Origin: Chloroflexota bacterium
Lineage (GTDB): Bacteria; Chloroflexota; Dehalococcoidia; JACPQD01
Direction of reading: 5' to 3'
DNA length: 64,000 nucleotides
Assembly (NCBI GenBank): GCA_016190665.1
Contig: JACPQD010000044.1
Coordinates: 1 to 64,000, forward strand
Positions 1-36,455 of this stretch are shown piece by piece. The notes beneath the pieces were generated by a model. It did not search any database, was not told the origin of the DNA, and was given only the letters and a program-made list of their open reading frames with translations. Made by a program: the position numbers and the translations under genes. The stretch's first letter is position 1, and each line of letters begins with the position of its first letter.

Positions 1-202
1 CTATCGGGCCTCCCCGTCCCTTGCCGGGTTACCCCACCACGCCGGCCTTGTATCCGGTTTCTGTTCGTCGAGTCCGAGTTTCGCCTCCGGCTTCCTTCAG
101 ATTCCGCCTCGCGGCGGACACCCTTGCCTTCGGCTGGCGGTTCCGGTCATCTCGGCCCGCAAAGGTCTTTCACCTCCTGGTTACATGACATGCCTGGCGC
201 AC
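1..202 (-). mobile_element. 5' part of a group II intron (domain I), truncated by window edge
   Basis: Read on the minus strand, this stretch begins with GTGCGCC at 202, matching the GUGYG 5' boundary of group II introns. It continues with blocks I recognise from bacterial group II ribozymes: an AACCAGGAGGTGAAAG segment, GGAACCGCCAGCCGAAGGC, and AATCTGAAGGAAGCCGGAGG. No reverse-transcriptase reading frame falls inside the window; it would lie beyond position 1. The 5' exon (bases 203 upward) holds a perfect 9-bp hairpin followed by TACCGGTTTT directly before the intron. That matches the habit of class C introns of inserting just after terminator-like stem-loops. Identification as a group II intron is firm; the class is inferred. 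Confidence 0.85.
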
Positions 203-33850: not shown

Positions 33851-34183
33851 TTGGTCAGAGACAGGAAGATAAGGCGAATCATCAAGGAGATCGTCGACCG
33901 GATCAGGGAAGGGTACGACCCGGAGAAAATAATCCTCTTCGGCTCTTATGCTTATGGAAGGCCCACCAAAGACAGCGACATCGATCTCTTTATTGTGAAG
34001 AAAACAGACAAGGTCTGGGTGGACCGCTTTGTCGAGGTTAAGCGGCTGATTTATGACCCCGCACGCCACATACCGGTTTCCCCCCTTATTTACACGCCCA
34101 AGGAACTGGAGGGCAGGCTGGAGTTGGGCGACGACTTCGTGGGGGAGATCTTGAGCAAGGGCGAAGTACTGTATGCCAGATAG
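33851..34183 (+). CDS. MNT-type nucleotidyltransferase antitoxin
   Basis: 110 residues from TTG 33851 (GAGGAAG upstream). GSYAYGRPTKDSDIDLFIV holds the GSxxxGxxxxxSDxD motif of minimal nucleotidyltransferases. MntA-type antitoxins can AMPylate the HEPN toxin encoded next. The gene overlaps the HEPN gene by 11 bases, the standard arrangement for the HEPN/MNT system. Confidence 0.88.
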   Translation: MVRDRKIRRIIKEIVDRIREGYDPEKIILFGSYAYGRPTKDSDIDLFIVKKTDKVWVDRFVEVKRLIYDPARHIPVSPLIYTPKELEGRLELGDDFVGEILSKGEVLYAR

Positions 34184-34574
34184 TCCGGACAGGAAGACGA
34201 TAGCCGCCGAATGGTTTGATCGCGGGGACCACGACATCGACAGCGCCAAGCTACTTTTCCAGCAGGGCGGACACACCGACACTATCGCCGTGCTGATCCA
34301 ACAAGCCGTTGAGAAGTATCTAAAGGGCTACCTGTTGGCCAGGAGCTGGAAACTGCGGCGTATCCACGACTTGGAGGCGCTTGTCACCGAGGCCGAAAAC
34401 CACGAGAATGGCTTTGCGTCTTTTCTGGACTTCGCCAGAGAGTTGTCCGCCTTCTATTTTCAGGCACGCTATCCGCCCGGGCCGCCGAGGCCGTATCCCC
34501 GGGAACAAGTAGCTGACGTGCTTATGAAGGCTGAAGCACTTATTAAGAAGATCAAAGAGGCAGCGGGGCCGTAG
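34173..34574 (+). CDS. HEPN-domain protein, toxin of MNT/HEPN pair
   Basis: 133 residues, helical. It begins AAEWFDRGDHDIDSAKLLFQQG, followed by QQAVEKYLKGYLLA, both hallmarks of HEPN proteins. The Rx4-6H RNase motif is not obvious: the closest is RRIHDLE, R-R-I-H. So RNase activity is uncertain and this copy may be a non-catalytic substrate-binding type. Confidence 0.85.
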   Translation: MPDSPDRKTIAAEWFDRGDHDIDSAKLLFQQGGHTDTIAVLIQQAVEKYLKGYLLARSWKLRRIHDLEALVTEAENHENGFASFLDFARELSAFYFQARYPPGPPRPYPREQVADVLMKAEALIKKIKEAAGP

Positions 34575-35843: not shown

Positions 35844-36365
35844 CTATCTCCCGGTCCCCTCCACCCCATACCCCGCCGCCTGCCAGGCGTCGAACCCGCC
35901 CGCCATCACCTTGAGGTCAGTGAAGCCTCGCTCGTCGAGTATCTGGGCCGCCCGGGCCGCCGTATCGTGCTCCGGTCAGCCGCAGTCGTTGGCCTCGGCA
36001 TAGACGACGATGGGCTTCCCTCGCGGCAGCTCCCGGTATCTCTGCTCAATCTCCGCCAGAGGCATCGAGATGGCGCCGGGGACATGGGCCTGGTTGAAAT
36101 CGACGAGGAACCGGACATCCACGACAACCAGTCCTCCAAGGCGCGCTTTCACCTCCGGCGCATTCATCTCGGAAGGGGCAAAGGGCAGCGCCGGAGTGGA
36201 GGCGGCCGTAGAAGCGGCGGGCGCTGTGGCGGAAGAGGCCACGCTCGCCGCGCTCGCACAAGCGGCTACGGCCAAACCTGCCAGCGCCGCCATCGCGACC
36301 CAGCCCGGCAACGGCCTATTCAGCAGTCGCTGGTTTTGGGAAATGGGCGAGATCGGCGAGCACAT
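35844..36365 (-). CDS. Rhodanese-domain lipoprotein with selenocysteine at the active-site loop (Sec130)
   Basis: 173 residues through TGA 35976-35978. Signal peptide with lipobox AVAAC (about residue 36), a Ser/Ala/Thr linker, then a rhodanese domain: VVDVRFLVDFNQAHVPGAI, PIVVYAEANDCG-U-PEHDTAARAAQIL, and the closing GGFDAWQAAGYGVEG. The reading frame is complete after the TGA and matches the end of the rhodanese fold exactly. Sec thus occupies the loop where rhodaneses hold their sulfur-carrying Cys, in a C-x-U-P context like the C-x-C-P loop of some family members. Extracytoplasmic sulfur or selenium transfer, or a peroxidase-like reaction, is possible. If the TGA were a stop, the domain would lack its catalytic loop. 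Confidence 0.82.
35945..35978 (-). promoter_or_regulatory. Sec codon with weak SECIS candidate
   Basis: Seventeen bases after the TGA, GGCC-CGGGC-GGCC can fold with a G at the second loop position, 22-23 bases after the codon. The stem is only four GC pairs, so this is weaker than the UGSC hairpins. Confidence 0.35.
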
Positions 36366-36384: not shown

Positions 36385-36455
36385 AACCACGAACCACACA
36401 AAATACACGAAAATTCCATAGCCTGTTTTCGTGTGGTTCGTGTATTTGGTGGTTC
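36385..36455. repeat. AACCAC...GTGGTT palindromic element
   Basis: AACCACGAACCACAC with AAATACACGAAAA faces TTTTCGTGTGGTTCGTG with TATTTGGTGGTT. An imperfect inverted repeat of ~70 bases, related to the one at 59543-59610. Confidence 0.6.

Follow-up and report, generated by a model that had tools for sequence, protein, structure and literature searches.

The window, a 64,000-nucleotide stretch of Chloroflexota DNA (contig JACPQD010000044.1), very probably contains a gene that makes a selenocysteine (Sec)-containing rhodanese, as judged from sequence comparison. The gene lies on the minus strand at 36365..35844 and runs from an ATG (36365-36363) to a TAG (35846-35844), giving 172 residues plus a predicted Sec at an in-frame TGA (35978-35976), which is the sole interruption between these two codons. 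Translated with readthrough, the frame gives MCSPISPISQNQRLLNRPLPGWVAMAALAGLAVAAC...IVVYAEANDCG-U-PEHDTAARAAQILDERGFTDLKVMAGGFDAWQAAGYGVEGTGR, in which the TGA takes the place of the catalytic nucleophile in the rhodanese loop (C-G-U-P motif), the same column in which the Sec homologues described below have their TGA. The Pfam Rhodanese domain (PF00581) spans the TGA when this is read through (residues 73-167 of the translated stretch, 4.7e-16), with a score of 59.5 bits, above the gathering score of 22.2. Using a family profile from which the window gene had been left out, we found that the 43 residues after the TGA were matched on their own at 47.6 bits, and the part before the TGA was matched separately at 45.1 bits. 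An AlphaFold2 model made from a 22-row alignment adopted the rhodanese alpha/beta fold (mean pLDDT 89.8), the active-site loop being the less certain region, and Foldseek matched this model to the solved rhodanese-domain proteins 3tp9, 3nhv and 3ilm (prob 1.00). The window gene codes for a rhodanese, and the halves on either side of the TGA are both coding. The original prediction was correct in its coordinates and exact in its text of the active-site loop around the TGA (ANDCG-U-PEHDTAARAA), and its claim that the rhodanese frame continues past this codon agrees with the domain match across the TGA and with the score of the 43-residue tail against an independent profile.

Homologues were sought among relatives, in 393 genomes of the class and in 400 genomes of the phylum. 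Among the loci read, 37 distinct homologous rhodanese genes besides the window gene have a TGA at the same catalytic column; homologues ending at this codon had been named as evidence against the Sec reading, and the homologues do not stop there. Most of the Sec homologues have a C-x-U motif and several have U-x-U, the second position being Sec in all. Three of the 37 sit in the window gene's own genome, namely the paralogues C18 (G000:C18; Y-U-T-U-P, lipoprotein-like), C67 (V-C-T-U-T) and C20 (V-U-T-U-P). In a maximum-likelihood tree of 83 rows, the window gene was placed within a set of 39 rows, 37 of them Sec-encoding, with a support of 99/92; the deep forks of this tree are uncertain because it was built from only 113 columns. 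Inside the Sec clade, one homologue, L097, has Cys at both positions (Y-C-S-C-P), and another member, L116, lacks both residues. These two are candidate losses of Sec. In named genomes, a scan with the family profile brought up rhodaneses, proteobacterial ones for example, none of which had an in-frame TGA, and a viral scan for the family found none.

In the alignments, the window gene is set apart by a five-residue insert: the loop reads Y-AEAND-C-G-U, compared to Y-C-T-U in the rest. This extended stretch, A-E-A-N-D then C-G, lies directly 5' of the Sec codon (35979..35999, minus strand), and the Tyr-Cys that precedes the loop in the family is Tyr-Ala in the window protein. Despite the insert, C and U remain the same distance apart (C-x-U), and so do U and the helix that follows. 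The longer loop and the replacement of Tyr-Cys by Tyr-Ala suggest that substrate use by the window protein may differ.

Other arrangements of the motif were observed among the homologues. The C18 and C20 paralogues (L024, G000:C18:11479-11853, and L110, G000:C20:38656-38973) each have two in-frame TGAs, giving U-x-U as Y-U-T-U-P and V-U-T-U-P, respectively, and the same two-TGA form was seen in the relatives L034, L046, L050, L095, L111 and L153. A more distant rhodanese (L144, in G465) has its TGA in another long-loop form, Y-C-T-G-A-T-U-G, with the same spacing from U to the helix.

We examined the DNA downstream of the TGA for a SECIS element and found, by comparison across family members, a hairpin at a fixed distance, G-C-G-C-C [CGUGC] G-G-C-G-C, whose loop G, in almost all members, lies 23 nt from the UGA. 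In the window gene, the bacterial SECIS-like hairpin is CGGCC[CGGGC]GGCCC (35945..35959, minus strand); its outermost position is a C-C mismatch, so that four G-C pairs remain (35958-35955 with 35949-35946) around a 5-nt loop, CGGGC (35954-35950), the second base of which is the G that lies 23 nt downstream of the TGA. RNAalifold, unprompted, returned the same five family pairs. Within the family stem, 98.1% of cells are paired compared to 93.6% in shuffles, and changes on both sides of a pair were counted in 8 cells compared to 1.8 in shuffles, with none of 500 shuffles as high; sliding the partner strand along destroyed the pairing. The pair 21-33 occurs as CG (22 members), UA (6), UG (2) and GC (1), the sole GC being the window gene, in which the family sequence AGC GCC CGT GCG GCG has become GCG GCC CGG GCG GCC with this pair kept, a compensatory change. 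More weight falls on the compensatory changes, since conservation of the encoded residues S-A-R-A-A could account for part of the hairpin's conservation. The Cys/Cys homologue L097 lacks this stem, its hairpin being degraded. As to chance, a comparable hairpin of 4 bp and a 5-nt loop with a loop G at the same offset followed 37 of 19,431 unrelated TGAs, and the same geometry together with the family loop sequence followed only one of them.

The published geometry of bacterial SECIS elements is a stem of at least 4 bp, a loop of 3-9 nt and a G as the first or second loop base, at a distance of 16-37 nt from the UGA (PMC13188914), and the window hairpin, with its 4-bp stem, 5-nt loop and loop G at 23 nt, lies within these bounds. 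It does not clearly reach the published energy criterion of -7.5 kcal/mol or lower (PMC13188914). Taken alone, the window hairpin is weak at -6.5 kcal/mol and does not outperform shuffled versions of itself (p about 0.34); in the 49 nt after the UGA, enforcing the hairpin gave -9.5 kcal/mol, whereas unconstrained folding gave a different fold at -11.5 kcal/mol, 2 kcal/mol more stable. Folding the post-UGA stretch alone gave no signal (z 0.66 and 1.01), and the hairpin emerged only from the comparison. The weight of the window hairpin comes from the family and not from the window hairpin by itself.

Searches of the window's genome for the Sec machinery identified SelA (568 bits), SelB (353 bits) and SelD (386 bits). 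SelD has its own in-frame TGA (AAG-U-AAKLG), which points independently to decoding of UGA as Sec. This Sec-containing SelD adjoins a gene resembling cysteine synthase (L019:1474-2538). Searches of the draft assembly with Rfam, a covariance model from nine relatives, a pattern and BLAST turned up no tRNA-Sec; the best covariance match was tRNA-Ser(GCT), and an Rfam scan of the selA/selB region gave no selC. The tRNA-Sec was present in nine of nine class relatives tested (68-78 bits). Because this is a draft genome (107 contigs, 96.55% complete, 6.13% contamination), the missing tRNA-Sec may reflect an assembly gap, and its lack from a draft is weak evidence of absence, yet it is the weakest point of the Sec case. 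The assignment of Sec to the rhodanese catalytic position, made in the original prediction, finds good support in the homologues, the hairpin covariation and the Sec machinery in the genome, and its motif can now be given more precisely as CxU (C-G-U).

A lipobox had been claimed as well. The translation, read directly, has a hydrophobic segment, MAALAGLAVAAC, that ends in a lipobox-like VAA-C (36258..36293, minus strand), the putatively lipidated Cys being encoded at 36260-36258; translation could alternatively begin at an internal ATG at 36293. The LAVAA-C motif, seen by eye, is a plausible lipobox, and lipobox-like N-termini also occur in the paralogue C18 and the relatives L036 and L044. 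Such a lipoprotein anchor would place the window protein, and its chemistry, outside the cytoplasm.

These data suggest a working model for the window protein. A single-domain rhodanese would be exported as a lipoprotein, its UGA (35978-35976) being decoded as Sec by SelB and Sec-tRNA(Sec) with the hairpin 18-30 nt downstream as a guide. The Sec would occupy the place of the catalytic cysteine of ordinary rhodaneses, and a Cys would stand two positions N-terminal to it (C-G-U). Outside the cytoplasm, the selenolate would attack a sulfane-sulfur or oxidised substrate, for which polysulfide, persulfide, thiosulfate or selenite are candidates, to form an Se-S bond; the neighbouring Cys would resolve this bond as a selenenylsulfide, a step made plausible by its position, and a membrane or thioredoxin-like thiol partner would then reduce the selenenylsulfide. 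The catalytic cycle, substrate and location are thus put forward as a proposal. A comparison of neighbouring genes revealed no conserved gene neighbourhood pointing to a substrate. The role of the window protein is likely to lie in extracytoplasmic sulfane-sulfur or redox chemistry, and we put the chances that sulfane-sulfur transfer is its main activity at about even.

It is also quite possible, if a little short of an even call, that the protein is a selenoprotein that is not mainly a sulfurtransferase, in which C-G-U would form a redox-active selenenylsulfide on a rhodanese scaffold, acting as a reductase, as a peroxidase-like enzyme or in selenite or metal binding. Both readings agree on Sec and differ in the chemistry. 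The CxU and UxU motifs are more like redox motifs than like the lone Cys found in classical rhodaneses, and the C-x-U spacing is kept although the loop of the window gene is longer; on the other hand, the spacing from Sec to the helix that follows the rhodanese loop is also kept, and the family is related to the sulfurtransferases GlpE and PspE. These two thiosulfate sulfurtransferases share with the window protein the rhodanese fold and the position of the catalytic loop, but they use a Cys nucleophile and have neither a CxU motif nor a SECIS element.

The next alternative does away with Sec: the TGA could be a genuine stop codon or the result of a recent nonsense mutation, leaving a truncated 129-residue product or a pseudogene. 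Both the missing tRNA-Sec and the atypical loop, with its insert and lost Tyr-Cys, would fit such a stop, but it would take away the active site, and the part beyond it is intact and family-like (47.6 bits). In addition, 37 other genes share the TGA position, and the window gene has kept the hairpin loop and spacing while making a compensatory pair change, which renders a true stop very improbable. That the TGA arose from a Cys (TGC/TGT) or Gly codon through a sequencing or assembly error has only a negligible chance of being correct: the window sequence does come from a single assembly, but other species, assembled independently, also have TGA at this codon, which makes a base-calling error very unlikely. 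The hairpin is present there too; nothing would be expected to maintain it downstream of a Cys codon, and in the Cys homologue L097 it is degraded.

Read as a Sec-containing rhodanese, the window protein belongs to a kind that existing catalogues already include among the predicted selenoproteins. Sargasso Sea data (PMC1088965) and Global Ocean Sampling data (PMC2398784) both yielded predictions of rhodanese selenoproteins, and current reviews, in which seleno-rhodaneses are given only as predicted selenoproteins, name several forms of rhodanese, one of which, with the motif CxU, is placed in NF041203 (PMC13188914, PMC9312934). We found CxU, UxxS, UxxG and UxxxxU rhodaneses in these reviews but no U-x-U rhodanese, and we found no bench study of the predicted seleno-rhodanese kind in the literature. 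NF041203 (NCBIfam rhodanese_LYCAU, "rhodanese-related (seleno)protein") is rhodanese-like form 3, with the motif CxU (PMC13188914). It is the best NCBIfam match of the window protein, which shares with it a single rhodanese domain and a Sec two residues after a Cys, and it is also matched by 22 of 22 aligned family members. The window protein differs from it by the five-residue insert before C-G-U, the Tyr-Ala in place of Tyr-Cys and the lipoprotein-like N-terminus; its score of 58.8 bits is below the cut-off of 115 bits, so we filed it under the seleno-rhodanese kind and not as a member of the NF041203 equivalog. TsoB (NF045694), a rhodanese/DsbD fusion-like selenoprotein, has in common with the window protein a rhodanese-like domain and selenoprotein status (PMC13188914), but it is far longer (profile of 572 positions), has the motif UxxxxU and is matched by the window protein at only 15.7 bits compared to 805. 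Closest to hand are the three paralogues C18, C67 and C20, which have a rhodanese domain, Sec at the same position and the family hairpin at the same distance; unlike the window gene, they have the standard short loop, two of the three have a second Sec in place of Cys, and C67 has no signal peptide.

On this sequence evidence, the window gene adds a further putative member to the catalogued predicted seleno-rhodaneses, its own features being the loop insert and the lipoprotein-like form. Standard annotation would truncate it. What is added to the seleno-rhodaneses as a whole is SECIS covariation in the family, a predicted lipoprotein form, a loop variant with C-x-U spacing and a genome with multiple paralogues, and with these additions the reason for a rhodanese to need selenium becomes directly testable. 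A more ambitious picture, which we regard as unlikely to hold as it stands, would have the window protein anchored at the cell surface, its active-site loop remodelled (Y-AEAND-C-G-U), as one of four or more paralogous seleno-rhodaneses of a single genome and as part of a division of labour in extracytoplasmic sulfur or selenium chemistry of a sort not carried out by classical Cys rhodaneses.

Three further features were observed in the window. Directly upstream of the seleno-rhodanese gene, at 36385-36454, there is a long imperfect inverted repeat with 29-nt arms that are 79% complementary. At 33851-34574 (plus strand), adjacent nucleotidyltransferase and HEPN genes, assigned by Pfam, form a possible HEPN-MNT toxin-antitoxin pair. 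Finally, positions 1-118 (minus strand), at the window edge, match the Group II intron model D1-D4-3 (RF02001) at 90 bits.
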